Of a DNA stretch of 37,928 bases, positions 2,233 to 17,221 are shown piece by piece. This DNA comes from Phenylobacterium sp. (GTDB taxonomy: Bacteria > Pseudomonadota > Alphaproteobacteria > Caulobacterales > Caulobacteraceae). A program made the position numbers and the translations under genes. The notes beneath the pieces are model-generated. The model was not told the origin of the DNA, made no database searches, and was given only the letters and a program-made list of their open reading frames with translations. The DNA is taken from contig NZ_JAUXZW010000002.1 in NCBI RefSeq assembly GCF_030693805.1, forward strand, positions 1-37,928, read 5' to 3'. Within the stretch, counting starts at the first letter, position 1. Each line of letters begins with the position of its first letter.

Positions 2233-3033
2233 TCAGGCGATTTTCAAAACTCCCCGCACAATCCCCTGGTTTATGCTTCTCCCGTCCGCAGTGTCGGCCA
2301 GCTCCTCAAGAAGGTCCGCCACGCGCCGCAGGCTGCGCACAGTCCGTGGACCGCTGAAGCTGCGAATGATCATGGCCACAGCATCAGGCTCTGCATCCAC
2401 CCGAGCGCTGATGAAGAGCCGCAGGTCCTCATCGGTGAGCTCATTATAGGCGAGCGTCTGCACGTATAGGGCCCGGTCCGCGACGGCTGCGGATATGACG
2501 CTGTTGCGTCCACCGGCCAGTGAGAACTCGCTATTCCCGACAAACACGAGCCCAAGCGGGAACGGAGCATAGCAGCGATCGGTGTCGTTCCAGTAGCGGA
2601 GTGCGTCGATTGATTCTCGAGACAGGTTCTGTGCTTCATCGAAGATCACTGTCAGCCTGCCGAGTTTGCCCGGCTCGTGCTCACCCTGGCGCACCGCGTC
2701 CGCATCAACGCCGGCCCAGTGACACATGGTCGAATAAATCTTCTGACGCAGCTCCCAAAGCGAAGTCGGAGCATGCTTGAGCGACGAGCCGCCCAGGCGG
2801 CGGAGCCCCTCAAGCAGGTGCTGCAGGACCAAGACTTCCTTGGCGTTCTGCCGCGCGATCTTCACCACCACCATCTCGTCTGGCCGGCGGGAACAGGCGA
2901 CATCAATGGCGGTGGTTTTGCCGATCCCAGGGGGACCAGAAAACACTGAAATACGCCGCCGCTCGTGGGTCGCCTGGATCCGTGCGATCAGCCGGCGGGC
3001 GATCGAGGTTGCGACGTAGGCATCAGTCAGCAT
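2233..3033 (-). CDS. Mu-type AAA+ ATPase (MuB/TnsC-like transposition protein)
   Basis: A 266-residue AAA+ ATPase. Walker A is GPPGIGKTT at residues 33-41 and Walker B is TVIFDEAQ at about 128-135. Later the conserved VFVGN sensor segment and the C-terminal helical region (RTVRSLRRVADLLEEL) are visible. Proteins of this class choose target DNA, bind it as filaments and activate the partner DDE transposase. I start at ATG 3033, which follows GGAAG at about 9 bases, rather than at an upstream ATG (3081) that would overlap the transposase. The start lies 4 bases after the stop of the transposase gene, so the two are almost certainly co-transcribed, as A and B are in phage Mu. No frameshift or missing motif is seen. 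Confidence 0.88.
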   Translation of the reverse strand: MLTDAYVATSIARRLIARIQATHERRRISVFSGPPGIGKTTAIDVACSRRPDEMVVVKIARQNAKEVLVLQHLLEGLRRLGGSSLKHAPTSLWELRQKIYSTMCHWAGVDADAVRQGEHEPGKLGRLTVIFDEAQNLSRESIDALRYWNDTDRCYAPFPLGLVFVGNSEFSLAGGRNSVISAAVADRALYVQTLAYNELTDEDLRLFISARVDAEPDAVAMIIRSFSGPRTVRSLRRVADLLEELADTADGRSINQGIVRGVLKIA

Positions 3034-3037
3034 CACG

Positions 3038-4993
3038 TTACTTCCGTTCCAGCCGCTGGGTGATTTCCATTTCGCGTGCACGTACGCGATCCGCTGCCGC
3101 CGGTTCTAGACGCGGTGATTGAAGCTCTTCCGCCATCGCCTTGCCACGCACCTCGACGTCGCTCCCGAGATCGAGTCTCGTACCAATGAAGGCTGATTGT
3201 TCCTGGGCTTGGCGCTTCGACCAACGGATTTTCGCTGCGACAGGATCGAGCTTCGGCGCCCCTCGCGCTAGCTCCGAGACGTATTTCGATTGCTCGCTCT
3301 GGCGTCGGCTTGAGACCTGCGCCCCCTCGATCCAACGCGCTGGAAAGAGCTGCTCGCGCTGCAGGTACACCCATTGCTCGCCGAGCTTCGCCAGCGGGGC
3401 GGCGTCGCGTCGCCAAGGCAAGGCAAGATCGACAGTGGTTCGCGAGGGTAGGGCGGCGAGCTTCTCATGCGTGAAGCGCTGGCCGCCGATCTTCAGAACG
3501 CCGCGATCAGAGCGGCGGCTGTCGCGATCTGAGAACGCCGCATCGAGCGCGAGCGGATCGACAGTTGCGCTCCGCCAGCCAGTCGCGACTTTCGACTGCA
3601 GCCACCCATCGGGCGATCGGTCAGCCCATTGCCCGCCCACAGGGCGCTGGTTGTGAGCGGTGATCAGATCCTGCGCGGTTCGGCAGAACTCATCCCAACT
3701 GCCTGGAAACGGCTTTGGCGGCTTGCCTATGGTCTGGGTCTTCTTGGCCATCCGGTTTGACCCGGCATAGCCAGGGAGCAGGGAGAACACGTAGCGATCG
3801 AGACGTGCGAACAGGCTTTCGATGGGCTTGGCCGAGGCATTGTACGGACGCGCATAAATCAGCGTCCGCATCCCCGGCTCATTCAGCTGCTGCAGCGCGC
3901 CGTCGATCTTTGCGAGCGCCCCGAACTCCGAGCCATTGTCCAGATAGAGCCCTTGGGGGAAGCCCCAGTTGGGCGAGGTGACCATCGCCAAGAAGCCTTC
4001 GATCACATGTTCCTGGCGAACGCCCTCTCCGCGCTCGAGGAGCACGAGGTGGACGAACACCCGGCCCGTGCCGGCGTCCATGAAGGCGACGATCTTCGGC
4101 CATGCTGGTGAGCCGTCCACACGTGTGACGATGACGTCCAGGTGCTTCACGTCGGCGACGATGCGTTCCATCGGCGCCAAATCTGTCCAGTCCCTGCGGA
4201 TACGCGGCTTGGCGTCGTCGAAGGCCTTCCGGTCATTCCGACGAGTGTTCACCACGCGGTAGAGTGAAAAGCGCTCGACGTAGCGCCGGCTGAGGCGAAG
4301 CGCGTCGGCCGGCAGCTGCACGCCTCGCCGCTCGCAGATCTCGAGCAGCAAGAACTCGGCGAGCCTTCGGACCTCGCGACTGCCGGCTTGTTCCGCGCGA
4401 GATGCCCATAGGCCCTTCAGCGCCAACTCGAGTTCGGCCGCAATATCTCGGTGAATCCGATTGCTGTAGCCGCGGCCGCGGAAGGCGCGGTCGAAGACCC
4501 GAGACACCAGCACACGCGCTAAGCCGGCATTCGATGGGCGAGCTCGCGAGAGGCCGCGAAAGCCGTGTTGTTCATACTGGCTAAGCCACCGATACAGCGT
4601 GCGTTTGCTGCACCCGATAGCCCGTGCAGCCTCGGCGATTGCAACGGCTCGATCTGGTGATTGGCAGGGGTGAGCGAACGCGGTTGAGATGGTGTCCCAG
4701 CGGCGCAGCGCGACGTGGTCCTGCTCGACAGTCGATCGCAGAGCCGGCAGCTGCCGGGCATTGCGAACTGCCTTATCTGCCGGGCGAAGTTCGTCAGGCA
4801 AACTGGCTACGCTGACCTGATAGGCGAGGCCTCCGCGTGCGCGGAGACGACGGACGCGGATCGCAGCACCCCGCCAAGGCTTGCCTTGCGAGCCCAGCCT
4901 CAGCGCCTTCCTGGCGGCCTGTACGCTGATGCCAGCAAGCTGGGCGAAGGCGTCCGTCGAGATCCACGGCCCTGATGCGCTGAAGCTCTGCAT
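3038..4993 (-). CDS. Mu-like DDE transposase (MuA family)
   Basis: A 651-residue transposase. The N-terminus (about 8-70) has the Mu-type DNA-binding domain (WISTDAFAQLAGISVQAARK and PWRGA). A helix-turn-helix follows near 118-140 (AEAARAIGCSKRTLYRWL). The RNase-H-like integrase core carries the acidic triad D281 (VADVKHLD), D352 (LDNGSEF) and E392 (KPIESLF). The C-terminal about 200 residues match the Mu C-terminal beta-barrel plus a charged tail. It catalyses strand cleavage and transfer at element ends. I chose ATG 4993, just after the stop of the metallophosphatase at 4995; an upstream ATG at 5041 would overlap that gene. No phage structural genes follow, so this is a Mu-like transposon or a prophage remnant, not an intact phage. 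Confidence 0.9.
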   Translation of the reverse strand: MQSFSASGPWISTDAFAQLAGISVQAARKALRLGSQGKPWRGAAIRVRRLRARGGLAYQVSVASLPDELRPADKAVRNARQLPALRSTVEQDHVALRRWDTISTAFAHPCQSPDRAVAIAEAARAIGCSKRTLYRWLSQYEQHGFRGLSRARPSNAGLARVLVSRVFDRAFRGRGYSNRIHRDIAAELELALKGLWASRAEQAGSREVRRLAEFLLLEICERRGVQLPADALRLSRRYVERFSLYRVVNTRRNDRKAFDDAKPRIRRDWTDLAPMERIVADVKHLDVIVTRVDGSPAWPKIVAFMDAGTGRVFVHLVLLERGEGVRQEHVIEGFLAMVTSPNWGFPQGLYLDNGSEFGALAKIDGALQQLNEPGMRTLIYARPYNASAKPIESLFARLDRYVFSLLPGYAGSNRMAKKTQTIGKPPKPFPGSWDEFCRTAQDLITAHNQRPVGGQWADRSPDGWLQSKVATGWRSATVDPLALDAAFSDRDSRRSDRGVLKIGGQRFTHEKLAALPSRTTVDLALPWRRDAAPLAKLGEQWVYLQREQLFPARWIEGAQVSSRRQSEQSKYVSELARGAPKLDPVAAKIRWSKRQAQEQSAFIGTRLDLGSDVEVRGKAMAEELQSPRLEPAAADRVRAREMEITQRLERK

Positions 4994-4994
4994 T

Positions 4995-5921
4995 TCAGAC
5001 GGCGACAAAGTTAGAGGCCGACAGCTCAGGAGCGCCGTCAAACCGATAGGCGACTAGCGGCCCGCCCTTGGCCACGCTGTAGTCCACACACGCGACCCGG
5101 CGCGATGCGGGAGCCCGGGGTCCCTCGGGATCAAACCAATAGTGTCCGATGAAGGTCGGGCGGTCTGGTTCCGCGATGCGGCTGTCTGGAGGAACGTCGC
5201 CGTCCGGAAGCGTCACGCCGGAAGGGCCGATATAGGCCTCACGAAGGCTCCCTAACTGCGGATCCCACCAGCGCGTGCGGATCGCGCTGCGGACGTGCCC
5301 GTCCTTGTCTGTGAACGTCGCGCCGCCTGGCAACTCGACCTCGACGCCCTTCAGCAGCGCGTCGACCGCATCATAGATGTCCGAGCCTGGCCGGCTGGCG
5401 GCGTCGATGTCGCCTGGCGTCAAGCGCCCCTGATCGCCAAGACGCGTCTTAAGGACTGCGGCGTGGCCGGGGCTCCAGCACGCGTGCACGACGCGAAAGC
5501 TCGACTCCTCGATCCACAGCGGCAGCTGATAGAACCAGTCGACCCACGCCCGATGTTCTGGAGTGTCTGCGCCGACCTCGCTCAGGAAGGCCGCGTGTTG
5601 ATGGCGATTCTTCTCGCCTTTAGGTCCCACGCGCGTCCGAAGGTGATCTCCCTCGATGTCTGCGTGCGGCGTTGCCCAGGCGATCGCATTGAGCTCGTGG
5701 TTGCCCATGACGGCTCGAGCGGAGCCGGCATCGATCATCGCGCGGACCAGCTCCAAGGTTCGAAGCTGACCTGGCCCGCGGTCAATCAGGTCGCCGACGA
5801 AGACAGCGGTGCGCGTCGGATGGCGCCAGGCGCCGTTCCGACGGCGATAGCCGAGGGTTTGTAGAAGCGCCTCCAATCGGTCGCCGTGACCGTGGATGTC
5901 GCCGATGATGTCTTGGCTCAT
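4995..5921 (-). CDS. Calcineurin-like metallophosphatase (Ap4A/serine-threonine phosphatase type)
   Basis: A 308-residue metallophosphoesterase with all signature motifs in order: GDIHG (7-11), GDLIDRG (43-49), GNHE (73-76), then later histidines in VVHACW and GHYW that would complete the two-metal site. Relatives hydrolyse diadenosine tetraphosphate or act as protein phosphatases; the substrate here is not determined. I use ATG 5921 (MSQDIIGDIHGHG), because the family begins right at the GDIHG strand and the 23 residues added by an upstream ATG (5990) do not look conserved. It ends one base before the transposase start, so it is read as the first gene of phosphatase-transposase-ATPase. Whether it is cargo or an integral part of the mobile unit is unknown. 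Confidence 0.85.
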   Translation of the reverse strand: MSQDIIGDIHGHGDRLEALLQTLGYRRRNGAWRHPTRTAVFVGDLIDRGPGQLRTLELVRAMIDAGSARAVMGNHELNAIAWATPHADIEGDHLRTRVGPKGEKNRHQHAAFLSEVGADTPEHRAWVDWFYQLPLWIEESSFRVVHACWSPGHAAVLKTRLGDQGRLTPGDIDAASRPGSDIYDAVDALLKGVEVELPGGATFTDKDGHVRSAIRTRWWDPQLGSLREAYIGPSGVTLPDGDVPPDSRIAEPDRPTFIGHYWFDPEGPRAPASRRVACVDYSVAKGGPLVAYRFDGAPELSASNFVAV

Positions 5922-6457: not shown

Positions 6458-6575
6458 GGATACCTCCAAGGGTGCGCGTGTCATCGCGCGACCCGTCCGT
6501 GTTCGCCCCGAACTGAGACGATGTAATTTGAGGAGAGGCGACGGGTCGCGTGATCACGCTGCGTCCCGAGGGCCG

Positions 6576-6596
6576 TGAGCTATTGATTTCTTATAA
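6576..6596. repeat. 21-bp direct repeat, copy 2
   Basis: Identical in 21 bases to 6027-6047 and in the same orientation. It is about 119 bases upstream of the minus-strand gene starting at 6457, a placement like that of copy 1 before the phosphatase gene. It could be a duplicated regulatory site, an attachment-type repeat, or a transposase-binding site. Confidence 0.85.
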
Positions 6597-6667
6597 TCAC
6601 TGCACGGGCAAGCCGTAATTTGCAGCGGCCCGGGGGTCCTGCAGTCGGCGGCTGGAGGGAGCAAGAG

Positions 6668-6765
6668 GTTTCCCAATCGGTTTCCCTATCGTCCCGTGAT
6701 TGAGGAACCTCGCGGAAGAATGTCCTGTAGATTCAATAGTGCGCGTGTCATCACGATTGGGAAAC
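6668..6765. repeat. 12-bp perfect inverted repeat
   Basis: GTTTCCCAATCG at 6668-6679 is the exact reverse complement of CGATTGGGAAAC at 6754-6765, with 74 bases between. It may be the two ends of a small non-coding element or relic; no open frame lies between them. Confidence 0.6.
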
Positions 6766-6908
6766 TACGTGCCCAAGCCAAGGAGAAACCACGCCCGCGA
6801 AGTTCGTTGGTTTCGTTCCAGGTTCCGCGGGGCTGTTGACAGAATCTATGTGCCAGTCTGCGCCATTTTGTAAGAACCGTTCCACTGACCGTGCGACCTT
6901 GCTAGTGC

Positions 6909-6923
6909 TTGAGAATAACTCAA
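6909..6923. promoter_or_regulatory. LysR-type box before the LysR gene
   Basis: A perfect palindrome, TTGAG-AATAA-CTCAA, containing the T-N11-A dyad typical of LysR-family sites. Its centre is 21 bases before the GTG start at 6937, a placement suited to autoregulation. The same arms and spacing recur at 10444-10458. Confidence 0.65.
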
Positions 6924-6936
6924 AGCTGAGCCGGGC

Positions 6937-7881
6937 GTGCGATACCGACTGCCTTCCCTTAACGCCTTGCGGGCGTTCGAGACCGCTGGGCGGCGCGGCA
7001 GCGTCACGGGCGCGGCGGAGGAACTTGGCGTCACGCCCGGCGCGGTGAGCCGTCATATCGGCATGCTCGAGGCGCACTTCGGCGTCCGGCTGCTGCTGCG
7101 GCATGGCCGCGGCGTGTCGCTGACCGCGAAGGGCCAGACCTATTTCGAGGAGGTGGTGCGCGCCTTCGACGGCCTTGACCGCGCCAGCAACGACCTCGCC
7201 GGACCTGGCTCGACGGGCGTGCTGTTCGTCAGCCTCTACACGACGCTGACGACCGAATGGCTGGCCTCGCGTCTCGATCGGTTCCGTCAGCGCCATCCGG
7301 AGGTCGATCTGCGGCTCACGGTCACCGTCGAGCGGGTGGATTTCGACAACGAGGAAGTCGACCTCAGCATCATCGCCGGGTCCTTTCGGCGGCCGGACCT
7401 GCAGGAGGACGCGCTATTTCGGTCTTCCTTCTTCCCGGTGTGCTCCCCCCTGCTGCTGGAGCGCGAGGTTCCGCTGAAGACGCCTCTGGACCTCAGCCGC
7501 CACACCCTGCTCTACGCGGACCGGGAACTGGAGATGTGGCGCGCCTGGTGCAGAGGTGCGGATATCCCGCCGCTCGACATGCGCAACGGCCTGCGCTTCG
7601 ACAACCTCAGCCTGACCTACCAGGCGGCGCGGGCCGGCGGCGGTGTGGCGCTGGGCCACCCCTTCTTCCTGGTCGACGACCTGGCCTCAGGACGGCTGGT
7701 GGCGCCGTTCAAGCTGGCGACTGATTCCTTCACCTTCCACGTCGTCTATCCAAAGGCGCGCGCCAACGCGCCCGCACTGATCGCCTTCCGCGAATGGCTG
7801 GTGCAGGAAGTCGCGACCAGCAACGCCGTCGCCCGTGCGCTGATGGCCGACTTCGAGGTGATGTCGGCCGCCTTCGAATAG
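6937..7881 (+). CDS. LysR-family transcriptional regulator (GcvA-like)
   Basis: A 314-residue LysR regulator. The winged-helix DNA-binding domain covers about 5-64 (LNALRAFETAGRRGSVTGAA, then ELGVTPGAVSRHI as the recognition helix), and the substrate-binding domain about 92-300. The LPSLNALRAFE start and the GcvA-type core (DLSIIAG, SPLLLE, GGGVALG) place it in the GcvA branch. The start is GTG 6937; the ribosome binding site is weak. The gene converges on the minus-strand hydratase and FAD-dehydrogenase genes, 15 bases from the hydratase stop. Identical palindromes before its own start and before the FAD gene point to self-control and control of that unit. The inducer is unknown. Confidence 0.9.
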   Translation: MRYRLPSLNALRAFETAGRRGSVTGAAEELGVTPGAVSRHIGMLEAHFGVRLLLRHGRGVSLTAKGQTYFEEVVRAFDGLDRASNDLAGPGSTGVLFVSLYTTLTTEWLASRLDRFRQRHPEVDLRLTVTVERVDFDNEEVDLSIIAGSFRRPDLQEDALFRSSFFPVCSPLLLEREVPLKTPLDLSRHTLLYADRELEMWRAWCRGADIPPLDMRNGLRFDNLSLTYQAARAGGGVALGHPFFLVDDLASGRLVAPFKLATDSFTFHVVYPKARANAPALIAFREWLVQEVATSNAVARALMADFEVMSAAFE

Positions 7882-7896
7882 CGGTCGCCGCGACGC

Positions 7897-8697
7897 TCAG
7901 GCGCTCACCGGCTGCGGCGCACGGCGCGCCTGCAGAGCCTGCATCGCTTCTGCGAAGTCGTCGCTGGCCGCACACGCCGCCACACGACTCCGTTCGGCCT
8001 GCATCTGCTGCTCGAAGTCATTGACTGCGGAATCCCGCAGCAGAGCCTTGGCCTGTCGCAGGGCGAAGGGTGCGCCGCGCAGCAACTTCGCGACGATCTC
8101 TCCAGTCTTGGTCTCCAGATCCGCGTCGTCGGTCAGCCAGTTTGCGATGCCGAAGCGTTCTGCGTCGGCGGCGCTCAGCACATCGCCGACCAGGCACATC
8201 TCCAACGCCTTCGAGGGGCCGATCCGGCGCGGCAGCAGCCAGGATTCCCCGTGGTCGGTCACGTGTCCCAACTTCACGTTGTTCAGCAGGAACTTCGACG
8301 TCCGCGAGGCGACCACCAGGTCGGCGGCCAGCACGAACTGCATGCCCAGGCCGATGACATAGCCGCGCGCACTGGCGATCACCGGCTGCGGCAGGTTTAG
8401 CCACGCCCGCAGCAACGGCTGGATGGTGGTGTCGAGGGCGCGTTCGAAGCCCGCGGCGCGGTCCTGCGGCGTGGACTGGCCGTTCTGAGACAGGGCGCCG
8501 ACGTCGGCGCCGGAACAGAAGTCGCCGCCGGCGGCGCGGACCACCACGACCTCGGCGGCTTTCTCATGCTCCAGCCGTCCCAGGATCTCGAGCAGACCCT
8601 TCATCATCTCCTGGGTGAAGGCGTTCTTCTTCTCGGGACGATCGATGGTGATCCAGCCGACGCGATCGGCGATATGCAGGGTGACCTGGTCGCTCAT
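7897..8697 (-). CDS. Enoyl-CoA hydratase/isomerase family protein
   Basis: A 266-residue crotonase-fold protein. Visible are the N-terminal strand ending in ITIDRPEKKNAF, the first oxyanion-hole segment (AAGGDFCSGADVGAL), the second (SARGYVIGLGMQFVLAADLVVA) and a C-terminal helical region. It would hydrate or isomerise an acyl-CoA in a beta-oxidation-type pathway. The usual acidic residue after GHVTDHGE is present, but I cannot decide the exact reaction. The start ATG 8697 follows AAAGGA; an upstream GTG-type extension to 8715 is less likely. It is downstream of a decayed acyl-CoA ligase tail and the FAD dehydrogenase on the same strand, so probably part of one transcript. Confidence 0.88.
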   Translation of the reverse strand: MSDQVTLHIADRVGWITIDRPEKKNAFTQEMMKGLLEILGRLEHEKAAEVVVVRAAGGDFCSGADVGALSQNGQSTPQDRAAGFERALDTTIQPLLRAWLNLPQPVIASARGYVIGLGMQFVLAADLVVASRTSKFLLNNVKLGHVTDHGESWLLPRRIGPSKALEMCLVGDVLSAADAERFGIANWLTDDADLETKTGEIVAKLLRGAPFALRQAKALLRDSAVNDFEQQMQAERSRVAACAASDDFAEAMQALQARRAPQPVSA

Positions 8698-8711
8698 GGC
8701 AGTCCTTTCGT

Positions 8712-8871
8712 TCACGCGGTCGTCGGCGCGGGTTGATAGGCGTTTTGCAGGTCGCGCTTCACGACCTTGCCGTTTGGGTGCGCGGCAAGGCGTCGATCAA
8801 GCGTAGGTCGGAGAGAAGCTCGGTGGTGGACATGCAATGCTCCTCGATGTCGGGCTGGTCGCCCTCGGGCT
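8712..8871 (-). pseudogene. Acyl-CoA ligase (AMP-binding) C-terminal remnant
   Basis: On the minus strand, one frame reads PEGDQPDIEEHC then LRLIDALPRT, and after a one-base shift near 8774-8780 it reads PNGKVVKRDLQNAY before a stop at 8712. This is the C-terminal subdomain of acyl-CoA ligases, including the A10 motif with its catalytic lysine (PNGK). The rest of the enzyme is missing. The remnant starts where the FAD-dehydrogenase gene ends, and the last dozen residues of that protein may even be read from ligase DNA. I infer a deletion that removed most of a ligase gene between the dehydrogenase and the hydratase. A short open frame MSTTELLSDL from 8834 is probably not a functional gene. 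Confidence 0.55.
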
Positions 8872-10308
8872 TCAGGCGCTGGCCAACGATGTGGCGCGGA
8901 CCACGCTCGCCGCGGCGCGCTGGCCGGCGCGGCGGCCGGTGATCGCCGAGCGCGAGAGCGCCGAACCGCTGAGGTACAGGGCGCCGTAGAAACCGCCGGC
9001 CGTCTCGCCAACCGCATACAGCCCCTCGATCGGGTCCCCGAACTGATCGGTCACCACCATGTCCGGGTTCACCGTCACGCCGCCGTAGGTCGAGGTGATC
9101 GCGTTGCCGGTGGCGGCGATGTAGTAGGGCGCAACGTCCACGGTCATCAGCTCGCCCTTGGCGTTCTGGTTCACCTTGCGGCCGAATTGGCTGTCGACGC
9201 CGCTCTCCCGCGCATCCTTGTTGTACTGGTCGACGCTGGCCTCGACCTTGGCGGGATCCAGGTTCATCGCGCGTGCGAGATCCGCGATGGTCGAGGCTGT
9301 GCGGATGTAGCCGTTGGCCAGCGCGTCCTTGAAGTTGTTGACGCTGGTGTCGGCGCCGGAGCCGTCCATCACCTTCTGGTCGAAGATCTGAAAGCCCAGG
9401 CCGTCGGGCTGCTTCATGCCGATGCCGCTCAGCACCTTGTAGCTCTGAGCCTCGTTGACGAACCGCTCGCCGTTCTTGTTGACCATGATCGCTCCGGCCG
9501 CGAAGGCGAAGATCAAGGGTGGGTAGTCGTCGTCCCCGGCCGGCTCGGGATAGTTGCGCAAGGCCCCGCCGTAGGAGCCGCTGACATAGCCCAGGTCGGC
9601 GTGCCCCGCGCCTAGCGCGGTCGCCATCACCAAGCCGTCGCCGGTGTTCGCGATGCCGCCGTGTTTGACCGCGTCGGCCAGTTCCGGCGCGTAGGTCTGC
9701 AGCAGCTTGCGGCTGCGCGAGAAACCGCCGGTGGCCAGGATCACGCCGCGCGAGACCTCGATATCCAGCGACTTACCGCCGTGGGTCACCGTCACGCGAT
9801 TGACCCGCCCGGCGGCGTTGCGGTGCAGGCGCGTCGCCGCGGCCTTCGCGGCGTAGCGTAGCCTCGGGGTCTTCAGCGCGGCTTCGAACATCGCCGTGAC
9901 CGCCCGGCCGGTCCCGGTGAGATGGGCGCGGGTGAAGCTGCGGATGCCTAGGTCGCCCAGGCTGAACTTGACGCCGTGGTCGCGCATGAACTCATAGGTG
10001 GCGAGCTGGTCCTCGACATAGACGTTGACCAGGGCGGGATCGTTCTTGTGCTGGCCGCTTTCCAGGAAGTCGTTGCGCAGAGCCTCCAGGCTGTCGCCGG
10101 TCATGCCGGCGGCCTCCTGCAGGTCGGTGCCGACGAAGGTGAACGCCCCACCGGCGTAGGACGAGCTGCCGCCGGGCTGATCGGCCTTTTCCAGCAGCAG
10201 GACGTCCGCGCCGGCCTCCGCCGCGGTGATCGCTGCACAGAGGCCCGCCATCCCGGCGCCCAGCACAAGCACGTCGGTCTTAGTGGGCAAAGCGTCAGCC
10301 TGGCTCAT
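8872..10308 (-). CDS. FAD-dependent oxidoreductase (fumarate reductase / 3-ketosteroid dehydrogenase-like)
   Basis: A 478-residue flavoprotein. The Rossmann dinucleotide motif is GAGMAG (17-22), followed by LLLEK and GGSSSYAGGAF. The flavin domain resumes at the C-terminus (GLYAVGETAGGFYGALYLSG, then SALSRSAITGRRAG). Between them is the substrate-capping domain of the fumarate reductase / flavocytochrome c / 3-ketosteroid dehydrogenase superfamily. It lacks an N-terminal heme domain and signal peptide, so it is probably cytoplasmic and desaturates or reduces a ring or acyl substrate that I cannot name. ATG 10308 follows GGAGACG. A LysR-type palindrome overlaps its predicted -35 region at 10444-10458. 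The extreme C-terminus may be altered by a neighbouring deletion. Confidence 0.85.
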   Translation of the reverse strand: MSQADALPTKTDVLVLGAGMAGLCAAITAAEAGADVLLLEKADQPGGSSSYAGGAFTFVGTDLQEAAGMTGDSLEALRNDFLESGQHKNDPALVNVYVEDQLATYEFMRDHGVKFSLGDLGIRSFTRAHLTGTGRAVTAMFEAALKTPRLRYAAKAAATRLHRNAAGRVNRVTVTHGGKSLDIEVSRGVILATGGFSRSRKLLQTYAPELADAVKHGGIANTGDGLVMATALGAGHADLGYVSGSYGGALRNYPEPAGDDDYPPLIFAFAAGAIMVNKNGERFVNEAQSYKVLSGIGMKQPDGLGFQIFDQKVMDGSGADTSVNNFKDALANGYIRTASTIADLARAMNLDPAKVEASVDQYNKDARESGVDSQFGRKVNQNAKGELMTVDVAPYYIAATGNAITSTYGGVTVNPDMVVTDQFGDPIEGLYAVGETAGGFYGALYLSGSALSRSAITGRRAGQRAAASVVRATSLASA

Positions 10309-10422
10309 GGTCGTCTCCGGTCCCTGGGGCTCGTCGGGCGGCGGGCCGCCCGGACGCGCGCGGAGAGGCGTTCCGCGCCCGATGCCGTGGACGTTAGCAT
10401 CCGGCCTCGGCGGCCTGAAAAG

Positions 10423-10458
10423 ATAATAACCGCAAGCACCTGATTGAGGAAAACTCAA
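10423..10458 (-). promoter_or_regulatory. Predicted LysR-controlled promoter of the FAD-dehydrogenase unit
   Basis: The perfect palindrome TTGAG-GAAAA-CTCAA is at 10444-10458 and has the same arms and spacing as the site before the LysR gene. On the minus strand, TATTAT (10428-10423) lies 15 bases after it and could be the -10 element, so the palindrome covers the -35 position. The FAD gene starts 114 bases further on. Confidence 0.55.
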
Positions 10459-10495
10459 GTCCGGCGCGGAGCGCTGCTGGCCGTCGCTCGCGGTC

Positions 10496-11521
10496 TTAAG
10501 ACGCCGCGGCGCTGGTCATCTTGAAGATGCCCTGGGCGTTGCCGCTGTCGAAGCTGAGGTCGAGTTTCCCGCTGCCCGGGACGCGCTCGCGCTGGATGAA
10601 CTCGAAGAACGAGCCCGGTGTCGGCTGTTCGACATGGCGTCCGGCGGCGTCGACGAACACGCGCACGATCGGGTCGGCGCGATAGGCGGTCTGGCGAATC
10701 CGGCCGGTGGCCGAGACCTCGATGGTCTCCTTCATGGGCCGGCCCATGTCGCGTTGGGCGCCCGCCAGCGCCTCCACGGAGGACACCCGGTCGGTGGCGT
10801 GGTTGAAAGCGTTTCCCTCTGTGGCGATCCAGGCCATCTCGGCCGACTCGGCCAGCACGACCTCGTAGTCGGCGCGCGCCGGCGCAGGGTGCTGGCGGGC
10901 GAAGCAGGCGACCATCTTTGGCAGCAGGGCGCAGGCGTCCGCGAACGACAGCCGTCCGGCCTTCGACAACGCTTCAAGGCGGGCGCGGTCCGCGTCGTCC
11001 AGCGGATCGACCGAACCCTGGGTGATCCGCGCCGTCGCGGCCTGGAACGCCGGCGAGAAGCGCTCGACGTGCAGTTCGCTGAGGAAGAATTGCGGCACGG
11101 TCTCGGGGAAATCGGCGTGGGCGTAGGAGCGGCCGGTCATGCCCAGGCGGTCCAGGGGATAGACCTCGTTGCAGAAATAGCCGAGCGGCAGCAGGATCCG
11201 AGTGAGGGCGGCTTCGCCCGACGGCAGCGATCCCATGCCCGCCAGTTCCACCGTGCGCAGCGCCCCGTGGTCGAACACGAGCTGGCGGCCAGCCGCGCTC
11301 AGGTCCTGCATGTAGAGCCGGGCCGTCGGCACGCGATCGAGCAGGTCTTTCAGCAACAGGATGTTCAGCGCCTGGGCGAGCACGGCGCGCGAAACGTCGG
11401 TGTCGTTCGCCTCGGCGAAAGCCGGGTCGAGCTGGATCTGATCCACCAGCGCGGAGACCTCCGGCGCCGGATCCACCGATCGCAGCAGGCGCCGAAGAAC
11501 GGTGTCGCGCACCTCTTGCAT
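10496..11521 (-). CDS. DUF1338 protein, 2-oxoadipate dioxygenase/decarboxylase family
   Basis: A 341-residue protein of the DUF1338 family. Members such as bacterial HglS are Fe(II) enzymes that convert 2-oxoadipate to 2-hydroxyglutarate in lysine breakdown. The metal and substrate residues appear as H85 and R89 (DHGALR, spaced like the known His and Arg), SELHVERFS further on, and a Glu in WIATEGNAFNHATDR. The family segments GRSYAHADFPETVPQ and ATGRIRQTAYRADP are also present. I start at ATG 11521, which follows GGGAG; the longer open frame to 11704 reads through the divergent promoter region. It is divergent from the porin gene and probably has its own promoter. No lysine-pathway partner is seen nearby, so the substrate is inferred from the family. 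Confidence 0.85.
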   Translation of the reverse strand: MQEVRDTVLRRLLRSVDPAPEVSALVDQIQLDPAFAEANDTDVSRAVLAQALNILLLKDLLDRVPTARLYMQDLSAAGRQLVFDHGALRTVELAGMGSLPSGEAALTRILLPLGYFCNEVYPLDRLGMTGRSYAHADFPETVPQFFLSELHVERFSPAFQAATARITQGSVDPLDDADRARLEALSKAGRLSFADACALLPKMVACFARQHPAPARADYEVVLAESAEMAWIATEGNAFNHATDRVSSVEALAGAQRDMGRPMKETIEVSATGRIRQTAYRADPIVRVFVDAAGRHVEQPTPGSFFEFIQRERVPGSGKLDLSFDSGNAQGIFKMTSAAAS

Positions 11522-11555
11522 GATCTCACTCCCTGCGTACCGGCCGCAGACTAGG

Positions 11556-11579
11556 GCTTTTGCGGCCCATGGCAAAAGC
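11556..11579. promoter_or_regulatory. Dyad in the divergent promoter region
   Basis: GCTTTTGC (11556-11563) and GCAAAAGC (11572-11579) form a perfect 8-bp inverted repeat with 8 bases between. It lies 35 bases upstream of the DUF1338 start and about 145 bases upstream of the porin start, so it could be an operator for one or both. No regulator is assigned. Confidence 0.4.
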
Positions 11580-11724
11580 GCTCGGCGGCGTCCGCGCTTA
11601 ATGATCGATAGACGAAAAGCCGAAATCAGGCCGTTGATTGGCGATCGCCCTCGATCTGAAGTGGCGCGCCGGCGGCCGCAAGAACTGGACCTCGTCATAG
11701 TCAAGCAGGTCAGGGAGGGGCGGA

Positions 11725-13167
11725 ATGCGTGGATCTATGACGCTTGCCGTACTGCGGAGCGTCGGGCTGGCGTGGTTCGTGGCCGCCGTGGTCGTCGCAG
11801 GACCCGTCGCGGCGCAGACCGCTCCGCCTGCGGGCGCCGGGCTCTCGCCTCAGGCCGAGGCGGCGCTGCGGACCCTCCGCTATCATCGCGAGGATGAGGA
11901 CTGGCGCTGGCTGAAGCGCGGCGCGCGCACGCCGGACGCGTGGGATCGGTTTGAATACATCCCCCTGGGGAATGGCGCGTCGCTGTCGATCGGCGCCGAC
12001 CTGCGCGCCTATTATGAGGGCTTTCGCAACGAGAACTTCGGGGTGGGCCTCGCCGAGAACCGGTACTTCCAGAACCGCGCCCTGGTGCACGCCAACCTGC
12101 GGATCAACGACAACCTGCGCATCTTCACCCAGTTGCAGAGCGAGGGCGTCACCAATCGCAAGGGTGGGCCGCGCCGGACCATCGACCGCAACGACCTCGA
12201 CGTGAACCAGGCCTTCGTGGAGACCGCGGTTCCCGGCGGCGTGCTGCGGCTTGGACGTCAGGAATTGCGGCTGGGGGTCGGCCGGATCCTGTCGACCCGC
12301 GACGGCGTGCTCAATGTCCGCCAGCCGCTGGACGGCGCGCGCCTGATCCTCAGGAACAAGGCCGGCCGCCTGGACGCCTTCGTCTTCCATCAGGTGCTGA
12401 CCACGCCTGACGCTTTCGACGATCGCTCGAAGGGCCAGCCGTATTGGTGGGGCGTGCAGGCCCAGCGCGCTCAGCCGACTCCGCGCGACCTGGGCGTCGA
12501 GCTTTACCTGCTCGGCTATGACGCCCAGCGCGCCACCTACTACGACGGCGGCGTGGGGCAGGAGCGGCGGCGTACGCTCGGCGGACGGGTGTTCATCAAC
12601 CGCGACGGCTGGGACAGCGACGCCGAGGCCAATTACCAGTTCGGGACGTTCCGCGGGAACCGCATCGAAGCATGGTCGGCGGACTGGGAGGCCGGCTACA
12701 CCTTCCGCGATCGGCCATGGAAGCCACGGCTGGGCTGGGCGTTCACCGCCAACAGCGGCGACAAGGCGATCGGCGATGGCGAGCTCAATTCCTTTCGCCC
12801 GTTCGTGGCGCGCCACCCCTGGGGCCAGCTTGCGCCGTTCGGCCTGACCAACATCGAGGGCGTCCAGGCGGTGGCGAATCTCCAGCCGCGCTCGAACCTG
12901 CGCCTGACCGCGCGGCGCTACTGGGTGCGTCGCCAGCAGGACGCGGAAGGGATCTACGCCGGCGGCTATGCGCCGCTGCGGCCTGGCTCACCCGCCCAAA
13001 GCCGCGACATCGGATCCCAGACCGAGCTCGCGGCCGAATACGACGTCACCCGTCATCTGAAGTTGTCGCTGTTCCTGACGCACGTCGAGGCCGGCCGCTA
13101 CATTCGGCAGGGGCCCGGCGGCAAGGACATCGATTACACCGCCGCGATACTTCAGTACCGCTTCTGA
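11725..13167 (+). CDS. Alginate-export-family outer-membrane porin
   Basis: A 480-residue predicted outer-membrane beta-barrel. A signal peptide occupies about 1-31 (hydrophobic stretch ending AAQT). The barrel has alternating strands and the features of the alginate-export family, such as LSIGADLRAYYEGFRNENF, NRALVHANLRINDNLRIFTQ, LRLGRQELRLG and a terminal aromatic residue (LQYRF). Such porins move anionic or aromatic compounds across the outer membrane, and many family members are not involved in alginate. ATG 11725 follows a strong GGAGGGG. It is the first of three plus-strand envelope genes (porin, TonB-dependent receptor, exported globin), 103 bases before the next. Confidence 0.88.
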   Translation: MRGSMTLAVLRSVGLAWFVAAVVVAGPVAAQTAPPAGAGLSPQAEAALRTLRYHREDEDWRWLKRGARTPDAWDRFEYIPLGNGASLSIGADLRAYYEGFRNENFGVGLAENRYFQNRALVHANLRINDNLRIFTQLQSEGVTNRKGGPRRTIDRNDLDVNQAFVETAVPGGVLRLGRQELRLGVGRILSTRDGVLNVRQPLDGARLILRNKAGRLDAFVFHQVLTTPDAFDDRSKGQPYWWGVQAQRAQPTPRDLGVELYLLGYDAQRATYYDGGVGQERRRTLGGRVFINRDGWDSDAEANYQFGTFRGNRIEAWSADWEAGYTFRDRPWKPRLGWAFTANSGDKAIGDGELNSFRPFVARHPWGQLAPFGLTNIEGVQAVANLQPRSNLRLTARRYWVRRQQDAEGIYAGGYAPLRPGSPAQSRDIGSQTELAAEYDVTRHLKLSLFLTHVEAGRYIRQGPGGKDIDYTAAILQYRF

Positions 13168-13270
13168 TCAATTCGGCGCCGCGCACAGTTGTGCAAACAC
13201 GCGGGTTGGTGTCTCAGTCTCCGTTCATGATAGGTCCGACCAATAAGAGTCGGGCGGGGGACGGGACGGG

Positions 13271-15211
13271 ATGCGGGCACTTACATTGGCACTGGCGATC
13301 GCCGCCGCCGGCGCGGGATCGCAGGCGCAGGCCCAGCAGCGCGCCCAGGAGAACGCCACGCGATCGGCCGACGACGCCTTCGGCGTGCAGGTCGGCAACG
13401 ACCGCATCGGCCTCTACAGCGACCGCGACACCCGCGGCTTCAGCCCACTGGCGGCCGGCAACGCGCGCATCGAGGGGATGTTCTTCGACACCCGCGGCAT
13501 GGTCACGCGCGTGCTGGCCAACACCACCATCCGGGTCGGCCTGACCGCCCAGAGCTATCCGTTCCCGGCGCCAACGGGCATCGTCGACTACGCCTTGAGG
13601 CCGCTGCCGGAGCGCGCGTCGTTCTCCAGCGTGCTGCAAGGAGGGCCCAACACCAGTTACGACATCGAGCTCGACGGCCAGCTGCCGATCGTCGAGGGCA
13701 AGTTCGGGATCGCCGGCGGGCTGATGTATCGCAATGACGTGCTGGTCCCGAGCGATCAGCTCAACACCCGTGCGGCGGGTCTTGTCGCCCGTTGGCGGCC
13801 TGCGGACGGCACGGAGATCATGCTGTTCTATGGCTATGCGGCGATCCAGCACGACCGGTTCAATCCGCTGGTGTTCACCTCCGGGCCGTTCCTGCCGCCG
13901 GACGTCAAGCCCACCTACTTCGGCCAGCGATGGGCGGTATCCAACGCCTGGAACCGCGCTTACGGCCTGCGGGCGCACAGACAGTTTGACGAGCACTGGC
14001 GGCTGGACACGGGCGTGTTCCACCAGAACATTCCCAACAAGGGACAGATCGCCGACCTCTACCTGAACACCGATCAGAACGGCGTCGCCGGACAGCACCT
14101 CGTCACCAACGAATTACCCGTGCAAGGCCCAGGCGTCTCGGGTGAGGTGCGGCTGAGCGGCGTCTACGTCGGCGATCGGGCCCGTCAGACCCTGCATCTC
14201 ATGGCGAGGGCGCGCAGTTCGGAGCGCAACTTCGGCGGCACGGCGAACGCGATCATCGCGCCGCTGGTGATCGGCCAGCGTGTCGACCTGCCGCAGCCGG
14301 TGTGGAACTACGGCCGGTCATCGCAGGACGAGGTCCGGCAATGGACGGTCGGCGCCCAGTACCAGTTCGCCTGGCGCGGCCTTGGCGAAGCGACCCTCGG
14401 CGTCCAGCAGATCGACTACGAGAAGACCGTCACCCCGCCCACCGGTGCGCCGACCGTCACGGTCGACAAGCCTCTGTTCTACAACGGGTCGGTGGCCTTC
14501 ACCCTGACCAAGCGGCTGGCCGCCTACGCGAGCTTCACGCAAGGACTCGAGGAGGTGCCGCTGGCGCCCGAGAACGCGTCCAACGCCCAGGAGGCGCCGC
14601 CGGCCATCCACACCGAGCAGTACGACTTCGGCTTCCGCTATGCGATCACCCCGCAGCTGCGCCTGGTGGTCGGCTACTTCAATGTGCAGAAGCCGTACTT
14701 CAACGTCGACCCGACGAGGGTCTACCGGTCGCTCGGGCAGGAAATCCACAAGGGCTACGAGATCTCGCTGGCCGGCAAGCTGACCGACCGTCTGAACGTG
14801 GTGGCCGGCGCGGTCCTGCAAAAGCCCGAGGTCACCGGCGAAGGCGTCGCCGCGGGCCTCATCGGACCCAAACCGGTGAGCCAGGCCGAGACCAACGTCC
14901 GCTTCAACCTCGACTACCGCACGGCGTGGATCGAGGGGCTGTCGGTCGATGCGGCCTTCGCCTACACCGGCGAGCGTGCGGCGACGGCGCGCGCCTTCGC
15001 CCAACTGGGCGGCAAGCAACTCGACGCCGAGGCTTTCGCCACCCTCGACCTGGGTTTCCGCTACCGCTTCAAGATCAGGGGCAATCCCTCGACCTTCAGA
15101 GCCCAGGCGCTCAACGTGTTCGACGATTTCGCCTGGCGCGTCTATCCGTCCGGCGCGTTCTATCTGGCGCCGGGGCGCGCCTATATGATGAGCCTAGCGA
15201 CAGACTTCTAG
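13271..15211 (+). CDS. TonB-dependent receptor with a shortened plug
   Basis: A 646-residue outer-membrane receptor. The signal peptide is about 1-22 (ending AQAQQ). The plug is only about 100 residues: GFSPLAAGNARIEGMFFD corresponds to the usual RGF-RIDG region, and PTGIVDYALRP to the plug end. About 500 residues of beta-barrel follow, ending with NVFDDFAWRVYPSGAFYLAP and a terminal Phe. I see no secretin/TonB N-terminal extension and no obvious TonB box. It would take up a ligand (siderophore or carbon substrate) with energy from TonB. A weak dyad, GCACA-GT-TGTGC, lies at 13183-13194 before it. Start ATG 13271 has a GGGACGGG upstream. The ligand is unknown. Confidence 0.85.
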   Translation: MRALTLALAIAAAGAGSQAQAQQRAQENATRSADDAFGVQVGNDRIGLYSDRDTRGFSPLAAGNARIEGMFFDTRGMVTRVLANTTIRVGLTAQSYPFPAPTGIVDYALRPLPERASFSSVLQGGPNTSYDIELDGQLPIVEGKFGIAGGLMYRNDVLVPSDQLNTRAAGLVARWRPADGTEIMLFYGYAAIQHDRFNPLVFTSGPFLPPDVKPTYFGQRWAVSNAWNRAYGLRAHRQFDEHWRLDTGVFHQNIPNKGQIADLYLNTDQNGVAGQHLVTNELPVQGPGVSGEVRLSGVYVGDRARQTLHLMARARSSERNFGGTANAIIAPLVIGQRVDLPQPVWNYGRSSQDEVRQWTVGAQYQFAWRGLGEATLGVQQIDYEKTVTPPTGAPTVTVDKPLFYNGSVAFTLTKRLAAYASFTQGLEEVPLAPENASNAQEAPPAIHTEQYDFGFRYAITPQLRLVVGYFNVQKPYFNVDPTRVYRSLGQEIHKGYEISLAGKLTDRLNVVAGAVLQKPEVTGEGVAAGLIGPKPVSQAETNVRFNLDYRTAWIEGLSVDAAFAYTGERAATARAFAQLGGKQLDAEAFATLDLGFRYRFKIRGNPSTFRAQALNVFDDFAWRVYPSGAFYLAPGRAYMMSLATDF

Positions 15212-15305
15212 GGGCGCCGTCTTGGGCCCGCCTGTCCGTTGCGATCCGTGGACGCGTTCAGGGACCAGCGCGGCCTCCACATCTCTCTGCAAGCGGGGTT
15301 CTGAC

Positions 15306-15797
15306 ATGAAGCCGATGATGCTGATCGCCCTGGCCGCCAGCGCGCTGGCCACGTCAGCCCTGGCCCAGCCGACGCCTGGAACCGGCGAGAACGCGGTCGA
15401 TCCTCATGTGGTGTCCGACGCCGGCGCGGCGCCGATCGCCGGCCAGAGGATGTTCGAGGCGTTCCACGGCGAAGCCGGGATCAGCCGCATCGTCGACGAT
15501 TTCGTCACCCGCATGGTCGCCGACCCCAGGATCTCGGAGATTTTCAAGGCCACCGATCTGGTCCGGCTGCGGCGCACCCTGAAGGAACAGGTCTGCTACC
15601 TGCTGGGCGGGCCGTGCGCCAACACGGGACGCGACATGACGACCACGCACATGGACCAGGGCGTCACCGCCGCCGACTTCCACGCCGGCGTCGAGAACCT
15701 GCAGGCGGCGATGACCAAGGAAGGCGTTCCGTCTCGCGTGCAGAACCGACTGTTGGCGAGACTCGCGCAGATGCAGGGCGACGTGGTCGAACGCTGA
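15306..15797 (+). CDS. Exported group 1 truncated hemoglobin
   Basis: A 163-residue protein with a signal peptide (about 1-20, ending ALAQ) followed by a truncated-hemoglobin fold: FHGEAGISRIVDDFVTRMVADPRI, then LKEQVCYLLGGPCANTGRDM, a probable proximal His in TTTHMDQGV, and ADFHAGVENLQAAMTKEGVP. It would bind heme and O2 or NO in the periplasm, which is unusual because most truncated globins are cytoplasmic. The two cysteines (QVCYL and GPCAN) could form a disulphide after export. I start at ATG 15306; the frame is open to 15222 but only the later ATG gives a signal peptide. It follows the TonB-dependent receptor by 94 bases and may share its transcript. Confidence 0.87.
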   Translation: MKPMMLIALAASALATSALAQPTPGTGENAVDPHVVSDAGAAPIAGQRMFEAFHGEAGISRIVDDFVTRMVADPRISEIFKATDLVRLRRTLKEQVCYLLGGPCANTGRDMTTTHMDQGVTAADFHAGVENLQAAMTKEGVPSRVQNRLLARLAQMQGDVVER

Positions 15798-15798
15798 G

Positions 15799-16083
15799 CT
15801 AGAGGGTGATCCAGCGGCGGGGCCACTTCCAGCCCAGCGGCCGCACCTCGCCGGGTTTCAGGGCCAGGGACTTCACCGTGCCGGCCGAAAGCTCGCTGAC
15901 CACATGCACGGGCTCCAGCCCTCCGACCGGGCTCACCGCGACGCCGCCCGCCAGCATCGCCTGATCGATCGCCGTCCATTCGGCCTTGGCGCGGTCCTCG
16001 TGGCCGACGGCGAAGAAGTGACGCAATGGCGCCGGCTCGCCCGCCAACTCCACCATCACCCCGATCATCCAGCCGCTGGCCAT
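15799..16083 (-). CDS. Hypothetical 94-aa protein
   Basis: Start ATG 16083 follows a good GGGAGG. The sequence begins [20 protein letters not shown] and has conserved-looking hydrophobic and aromatic positions ([29 protein letters not shown]), but I recognise no domain. There is no signal peptide or long membrane segment. It converges on the globin gene, its stop being one base beyond that gene's stop, and is divergent from the PhnD-like gene. Confidence 0.6.
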
Positions 16084-16219
16084 GGTCCGCCTCCCTTGCC
16101 GCCAGAGACGACAACCCGCCGCCGCATTCAAGGCCGCGCGGAGGCCTGTAAATATTTCATGGCCGCGCATGTTCGCCGGCGGCGCGCAGCATAAGCTGCG
16201 CCGCCCGCCAGGAGTCGTC

Positions 16220-17221
16220 ATGAACCGTCGCATCGTCATCGCCGCCGCCCTGCTGGCGGTGGTCGGATCGCTCGCCGCCTGCTCGAAGCCCGCCCAGCCG
16301 CCCGCCAAGACCGTGCTCAACTTCTCGATCATCTCGGCCGAGAGCCAGCAGTCGGCGGAGGGCGACTGGCGGCCCTTCCTCGACGAGATGTCCAAGGCCA
16401 CGGGCCTAACCGTGCGGCCGTTTTTCGGCAGCAACTACACGACCCTGATCGAGGCCATGCGGTTCAAGCAGACCGACCTCGGCTGGTTCACCAACCAGTC
16501 CGGACTTGAGGCCGTGCGCCGGTCGGGAGGGGAGGTGTTCGCCCGCTCGGTCAATCCCACCGGCGTCGATGGCTACGAGGGCGTGATCATCGTGCGCAAG
16601 GGCGGCGGCGTCACCCTCGACAAGCTGCTGAAGTGCGACAAGACGATCGACTTCGGCATGGGCGACGCGAAGTCCACCTCCGGCACCCTGGCGCCGATGA
16701 CCTATCTGTTCGCGCCGCGCGGGATTGACCCCGCGACCTGCTTCCGGACCGTGAAGTCGGCCAACCACGAAGCCAACCTGTTCGCGGTGGGTAACGGCGT
16801 GCTGACGGCGGCGACCAACAACACCGCCTCGATGGACCGTATGGCGATGCTCGACACCGGCCTCGCCAAGCGCACGATCCATAATGTCGAGATCATCTGG
16901 CGCTCGCCGCGTATTCCCGAGGACCCGATGGTCTGGCGCAAGGACCTGGACCCGAAGATCAAGGCCAAGGTCGCCGACTTCATCTTCGCCTACGGGGTCG
17001 GCGACACGCCGGAAGCAGCGCGCCAGCGAACAATCTTGGCGCGCATCCAGACCCTGCCGTTCAAGCGGGCGAACGACAGCCACCTGCTGCCGGTGCGCGA
17101 GATGGAGGCCACCGAGCAACTGCTGGTCGCGCGCAAGAAGGGTGACGCGGCCGCCGTCGCCCAGGCCCAGGCGGCGCTGGACGCGGTGAAGGCCGAGCGC
17201 GCCGCTGCTCCGGCAAGCTAG
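16220..17221 (+). CDS. phnD: PhnD-like phosphate/phosphonate-binding lipoprotein
   Basis: A 333-residue periplasmic substrate-binding protein. The N-terminal hydrophobic stretch ends in a lipobox, LAAC, with Cys21. The PhnD family core follows: [65 protein letters not shown] and [19 protein letters not shown]. It would capture phosphonate or a related oxyanion for an ABC importer. No PhnC ATPase or PhnE permease is in the window, so it is an orphan here. A C-terminal Ala-rich helix (about 300-333) is an extra tail. ATG 16220 follows AGGAG; the longer frame from 16082 would bury the signal. Confidence 0.88.

Follow-up and report, generated by a model that had tools for sequence, protein, structure and literature searches.

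Two matched palindromes as putative operators of a GcvA-like LysR regulator near an FAD-dehydrogenase gene in Phenylobacterium sp.

Contig NZ_JAUXZW010000002.1 of the Phenylobacterium sp. draft genome (RefSeq assembly GCF_030693805.1) carries two copies of the palindrome TTGAG-N5-CTCAA, and the question is whether these are the sites through which a nearby LysR-type regulator controls its own gene and that of a flavin adenine dinucleotide (FAD)-dependent dehydrogenase, as had been predicted from the sequence alone. The window analysed is this whole contig (C206; 37,928 bp), one of 440 contigs in a draft of 3,273,794 bases (completeness 97.11, contamination 5.15). The palindromes are most likely the operators of the GcvA-like LysR whose gene lies at 6937–7881, and with it they would form a two-operator local circuit combining autorepression with ligand-dependent control of the FAD gene. 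The features concerned are as follows.

6909–6923, no strand: putative LysR operator 1, TTGAG-aataa-CTCAA, exact, 13 bp from the LysR GTG start (6937); first-ranked motif match in the window
10444–10458, no strand: putative LysR operator 2, TTGAG-gaaaa-CTCAA, exact, 135 bp ahead of the ATG of the FAD gene; second-ranked motif match in the window
6937–7881, plus strand: GcvA-like LysR-type regulator, 314 aa, GTG start, recognition helix VTPGAVSRH
8872–10308, minus strand: FAD-dependent dehydrogenase (FAD_binding_2; Pfam, 3e-55), the presumed target gene
7897–8715, minus strand: enoyl-coenzyme A (CoA) hydratase/isomerase family protein (Pfam ECH_1, 5.8e-49), convergent with the LysR gene
10428–10423, minus strand: -10-like TATTAT downstream of operator 2, spotted by eye and below the threshold of the promoter scan

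Position and rarity of the palindromes

Both palindromes are intergenic and perfect in both arms, and each contains the T-N11-A dyad within those arms. The coordinates and letters given in the original prediction were therefore correct, as were the 13 bp between the first palindrome and the LysR start and the convergent arrangement, in which the sites lie 3.5 kb apart with the LysR gene on the plus strand and the FAD and hydratase genes on the minus strand. The second palindrome had also been placed over a predicted -35 element of the FAD gene, but a sigma-70 promoter scan of positions 6500–11800 found no promoter. If TATTAT at 10428–10423 is the -10 element, the operator 2 box falls at about -42 to -28. 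The most likely start of the FAD gene is the ATG at 10308, based on alignment with two Hyphomonadaceae homologues (57 and 56% identical).

The regulator has an N-terminal HTH_1 domain (Pfam, 1.6e-20) and a C-terminal LysR_substrate domain (5.1e-35), and its best NCBIfam profile is GcvA (NF008352; 280.8 bits over residues 1–301). Because this score is just under the curated cut-off of 288, the regulator is named GcvA-like rather than GcvA.

The original prediction depended on the palindrome not being frequent in the genome, and a count bore this out, as only these two exact copies occur in the draft, both in the window; the reversed-pattern control gave 0. With only two exact sites in the draft genome, the regulon is therefore probably local. 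When one mismatch was allowed, 24 sites were found (both window sites included), compared with 7 for the control. Shuffled windows contained a mean of 0.02 matches, and none of 100 contained two.

The exact palindrome was also searched for in 100 genomes, including the source genome; 43 had a match, with up to 7 sites per genome. The 59 genomes of the same genus contained 17 exact sites in ~225 Mb (a sum of rounded sizes), or 0.075 sites/Mb, which predicts ~0.003 per 37.9 kb, and 40 genomes from other families of the order contained 84 in ~127 Mb (again from rounded sizes), or 0.66 sites/Mb, predicting ~0.025 per 37.9 kb. Two intergenic sites 3.5 kb apart on one 38-kb contig are far beyond chance by either background rate. 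The sharing of arms is not in itself rare, as the 93 perfect 5-n5-5 repeats in the window have 73 distinct arms, 14 of which occur at least twice. TTGAG is alone among these 14 in having three A/T letters, the other 13 being richer in G+C, and six repeats in the window have at least three A/T letters per arm, two of them the palindromes.

Boxes in homologous FAD clusters and ahead of related regulators

Close relatives of the FAD protein were found in 3 of 149 genomes at E <= 1e-80 and in 2 of 385 at E <= 1e-100, the source genome being included in both cases, and the homologue from locus L012, used as query, found relatives in 12 of 105 genomes of its own family at E <= 1e-130. A scan with a three-sequence FAD alignment kept 80 of 189 loci, including nine (L032–L040) that are 55–58% identical; L032, L033 and L039 have the same or nearly the same sequence, as do L037 and L038. 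A LysR homologue is present in all of L032–L040 and also in L012, L013 and L124 (whole genomes), making 12 of the 14 distinct loci in which a relative of the FAD gene occurs. No LysR match was found in the L125 or L126 locus, the latter on a 14-kb contig. GcvA was the best NCBIfam profile for the LysRs of L012 and L035, the two that were tested.

No close orthologue of the window LysR was identified, with matches in 4 of 149 genomes at E <= 1e-60 (source genome included; the best other was 42% identical) and in 2 of 385 at E <= 1e-70 (source genome included), a first contig scan having given none. A looser search at E <= 1e-52 found matches in 73 of 354 genomes, including the source genome, these being GcvA-type LysRs of at most 42% identity, and a tblastn search of plasmids with the L035 LysR at 1e-50 returned nothing. 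The DNA-binding domain of the window LysR is closest to that of L035 (74% identity; others 53–62%).

In view of the near-identical loci, seven Hyphomonadaceae clusters (L012, L013, L124, L034, L037, L039 and L040) were taken for motif training. Each has a 15-bp box 7–9 bp ahead of its LysR gene, which reads TTCAG-N5-TGGAA in five clusters and TTCAG-N5-TAGAA in the other two. These boxes were first noticed by eye and then searched for with a loose pattern in LysR upstream regions, and were thus chosen rather than found blind. A position weight matrix was built from the LysR boxes only, with the tested locus left out, and run across each whole locus (17–21 kb). In 7 of 7 clusters the top two matches were the LysR box and a box 91–97 bp ahead of a divergent FAD monooxygenase gene, and in 5 of the 7 the second box is also ~100 bp ahead of the FAD-dehydrogenase gene. 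The best match in L126 lies 92 bp ahead of the monooxygenase gene, and that in L035 (Sphingomonas colocasiae) lies 94 bp ahead of it and reads TTGAG-aaaat-TGGAA on one strand.

When applied to the window, the matrix ranked 6909 first (12.8 bits) and 10444 second (12.3 bits), with the third match at 7.8 bits. The two palindromes were also the best of the 93 perfect 5-n5-5 repeats scored with the same motif, the next reaching 3.0 bits. It is not the height of these scores that is the evidence, but that a matrix trained without the window landed on two sites named beforehand.

Upstream boxes were compared for nine LysRs that share the helix core VTPGAVSR (the window regulator, L162, L170, L183, L184, L185, L187, L181 and L218), and exact TTGAG-N5-CTCAA precedes the start in three (by 13 bp in the window, 22 bp in L187 and 21 bp in L218). 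Two others have TTGAC-N5-CTCAA, one arm letter off, two have TTGAC-N5-GGCAA, three letters off, and two have no clear box. L187 (also L223) is a GcvA-type LysR of a Cupriavidus campinensis plasmid and L218 (also L222) one of genome G849; as their clusters are alike, they were counted as one case. The ranking of the window sites, the layout in all seven clusters and the exact box at two other GcvA-type LysRs together favour the prediction that the regulator acts on its own gene and on the FAD gene.

A matched pair was also found in Azospirillum brasilense (L170), with TTGACcaaagCTCAA 21 bp ahead of the LysR gene and an exact TTGAGcaaaaCTCAA ~100 bp ahead of an oligonucleotide/oligosaccharide-binding (OB)-fold gene that precedes a thiolase gene. 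Two more TTGA[CG]-N5-[CG]TCAA boxes (4902–4916 and 4967–4981) were seen in this locus between genes for a major facilitator superfamily transporter and an NAD(P)-dependent oxidoreductase (5085), and these extra boxes near a GcvA-type LysR perhaps represent a larger local regulon.

Competing explanations and the proposed circuit

Several observations weigh against the two palindromes being operators of this regulator. The best score in the window was matched in 80 of 200 Markov shuffles and the second in 25 of 200, and the two window sites, having identical arms, cannot be counted as separate successes for the motif. No box was found at the expected places among the top five matches in L036, which has the LysR-hydratase order nearest to that of the window, or in L125, where an FAD homologue is present and the best match is far from its gene. 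In L035 no box precedes the LysR gene, which closely trails another gene, and the monooxygenase box is contained in the 3'-terminal part of the LysR frame. Absence of the palindrome upstream of the orthologous FAD gene had been named as a result that would refute the original prediction, and the exact letters were indeed not conserved, with no copy in L012, L013, L032–L040 or L124–L126; most of these loci nevertheless have a diverged box in a similar position. GcvA-type boxes also precede LysR genes with no adjacent FAD gene. The window LysR is 34–43% identical to FAD-linked LysRs, compared with 41–42% to four unlinked ones, and a LysR tree leaves its orthology to the FAD-linked LysRs unsettled.

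Two candidates were rejected. A box picked by eye in L036, TTGAGAAAATTGTGA, ranked seventh with a wider motif; it was unsupported by the scan and is not counted. A box specific to FAD-linked LysRs was also rejected, as unlinked LysRs carry GcvA-type boxes too.

It is unlikely that only the site at 6909–6923 works, in autoregulation, with the copy at the FAD gene a chance match or a relic. Other GcvA-type LysRs do have a box ahead of their own start (target sites were not looked for in most of them), and no promoter was predicted at the FAD site, but at either background rate there is very little chance of another exact copy within 3.5 kb, boxes at target promoters were found in all seven training clusters, and the palindromes are two of just six window repeats with A/T-rich arms. 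There is little reason to favour use of both sites by a different regulator, either another GcvA-type LysR or a repressor encoded elsewhere, and this is rated quite improbable. The genome may encode more LysRs, a first look having listed 12 candidates in it (one above threshold), but the draft has no exact site apart from the two next to this LysR gene, the nearer being 13 bp ahead of it, and among the nine VTPGAVSR regulators exact or near-exact boxes recur at the regulator's own start.

That the palindromes are short RNA hairpins or chance inverted repeats, and not protein sites, is very improbable indeed. Five-base arms are short, and the window is rich in such repeats and in recurring arms. 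However, neither site has a terminator-like match, no Rfam match was found in the window at the gathering score, and the arms and A/T-rich spacers agree with those of independent LysR-promoter boxes.

Under the preferred reading, in which the GcvA-like LysR uses both palindromes as operators, ligand-dependent activation combined with autorepression is favoured from the general behaviour of LysR regulators. The protein would recognise 15-bp inverted repeats whose spacer is rich in A/T, here TTGAG-N5-CTCAA, as E. coli GcvA is predicted to do at ATTAG-n5-CTAAT. For GcvA, two such 15-bp repeats have been predicted, with centres at -65 and -43 relative to the gcvB start, and self-repression is linked to the repeat that overlaps the regulator's own promoter (PMC5002191). 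By analogy, LysR at 6909–6923 would occupy the region where its own gene begins and thereby repress that gene, the box being positioned at or next to the transcription start. Its occupancy of 10444–10458 would govern the promoter of the FAD dehydrogenase, probably switching it on in the presence of a catabolic intermediate, and a box at about -42 to -28 would be compatible both with repression and with an activator that contacts the -35 region. Transcription of the FAD gene may extend into the hydratase gene. What is observed is the sequence, its genome-wide rarity and a similar layout in relatives, whereas binding, the direction of regulation, the ligand and membership of the hydratase in the unit are inferences.

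Neighbouring genes

Two further features adjoin the FAD gene.

8716–8840, minus strand: possible remnant of an acyl-CoA ligase C-terminus (..NGKVVKRDL..), from translation only, in two frames
10496–11521, minus strand: HGLS-family (2-oxoadipate dioxygenase/decarboxylase-like) gene (Pfam PF07063, 2.5e-21), upstream of the FAD gene, with its start picked by eye

The possible remnant lies in the 156 bp gap between the hydratase and FAD genes, and includes NGKVVKRDL, which is presumably an acyl-CoA ligase C-terminal motif. It suggests a decayed gene in the unit; a tblastn search with two acyl-CoA ligases did not report the stretch. Genes for an alginate-export-type porin, a TonB-receptor-like protein (below the NCBIfam cut-off) and a phosphonate-type periplasmic binding protein adjoin the unit at 11725–17218, and are possibly an uptake set for its substrate. 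On the other side, genes for an AAA ATPase and transposase-like proteins (AAA_22 and HTH domains only in Pfam) were found at 2233–5041, at a distance of ~1.9 kb from the regulator, and are presumed to be TniB/TniA-like. The LysR and FAD searches at E <= 1e-60 and E <= 1e-80, respectively, found no match in any genome of the same genus, and therefore the cluster may have been acquired, or the contig may be foreign to this draft genome.

Operator choice and comparison with known systems

LysR proteins form a large group whose operators are difficult to predict from sequence. The few matched pairs of regulator and operator assembled here for the GcvA-like branch are raw material for testing what sets operator choice, and an uncharacterised FAD dehydrogenase is now tied to a regulator with a concrete 15-bp candidate operator. 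Tentatively, the two-operator circuit may have been kept between families while the operator letters (TTCAG-N5-NNGAA and TTGAG-N5-CTCAA) and the helix (VSVGAVSRH and VTPGAVSRH) changed together, a proposal held with somewhat less than even confidence. Were it true, L035 would stand between the two, with its box TTGAG-aaaat-TGGAA and its helix VTVGAVSRH, and there would be a natural series for reading operator choice by GcvA-type regulators.

A one-residue code relating LysR residue 39 to arm position 3 was not confirmed in a second set of loci and is not claimed. In the first set, of which 10 of 47 rows were wrongly oriented loci carrying no helix, R39 occurred with G/C at arm position 3 in 16/16 and H or Q with A/T in 10/11 at a score of at least 7 with at least three A/T in the spacer, and in 7/8 and 10/11, respectively, at a score of at least 8 with no spacer filter. 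The second set comprised 39 loci for which the prediction had been written beforehand, but was not fully blind, as 10 of the 39 had previously been displayed, wrongly oriented. Here, at a score of at least 8 with at least three A/T in the spacer and with 3 mixed boxes set aside, the rule held in 3/3 for R and 8/15 for H/Q (p = 0.22), and at a score of at least 7 in 3/4 and 9/16. The helix class VTQTAISHQ, which accounts for 7 of the 15 H/Q cases, breaks the rule. Separately, 7 of 8 GcvA-type LysRs with this helix (L193–L198 and L203) carry ATGAA- or ATGAT-N5-[CG]TCAT 15–20 bp ahead of the start, a putative further operator type.

Among GcvA-type LysRs with no linked FAD gene, boxes scoring at least 9 were found in 13 of 47 upstream regions (10 of the 47 being mis-oriented), compared with 539 of 14,100 random stretches; the Hyphomonadaceae boxes reach 7 of 11 at most on the GcvA-type scale. 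In the form xTxAG-n5-CTxAx, generalised here from ATTAG-n5-CTAAT, 6 of 6 core positions are matched at both window sites. No paper was found on the operator string in the forms searched, nor any on Hyphomonas or LysR tied to this cluster.

E. coli GcvA resembles the window system in being the best NCBI family profile for the regulator and in its 15-bp inverted repeat with 5-base arms and a 5-base spacer. The arms differ (TTGAG/CTCAA in the window, ATTAG/CTAAT for GcvA), and the window has one repeat per promoter whereas GcvA has two, centred 22 bp apart; no second repeat was found 22 bp from either window site by the criteria used, with one weak 6-of-10 match at 6870. The neighbouring genes do not suggest glycine metabolism. 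The classical divergent layout of LysR-type transcriptional regulators, with a shared control region, is absent, as the LysR gene is convergent with the FAD and hydratase genes.

The Cupriavidus campinensis and G849 regulators share with the window the exact palindrome ahead of the regulator start and the helix core VTPGAVSR, but their neighbours are CoA-transferase III and molybdopterin dehydrogenase genes, and only one exact site occurs in the 16–17 kb read. The Hyphomonadaceae clusters share a homologous FAD dehydrogenase, a 15-bp TT-N11-AA box with a mostly A/T spacer, and the placing of one box by the LysR start and one ahead of target genes. Their boxes, however, are TTCAG-N5-NNGAA, their regulators are 34–37% identical to that of the window in the six aligned, and they carry divergent short-chain dehydrogenase/reductase and monooxygenase genes to which the window gave no significant match. 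The proposed circuit is of an ordinary kind with an unusually clean pair of sites, and the more interesting part is that the two-site layout is kept while the letters differ.

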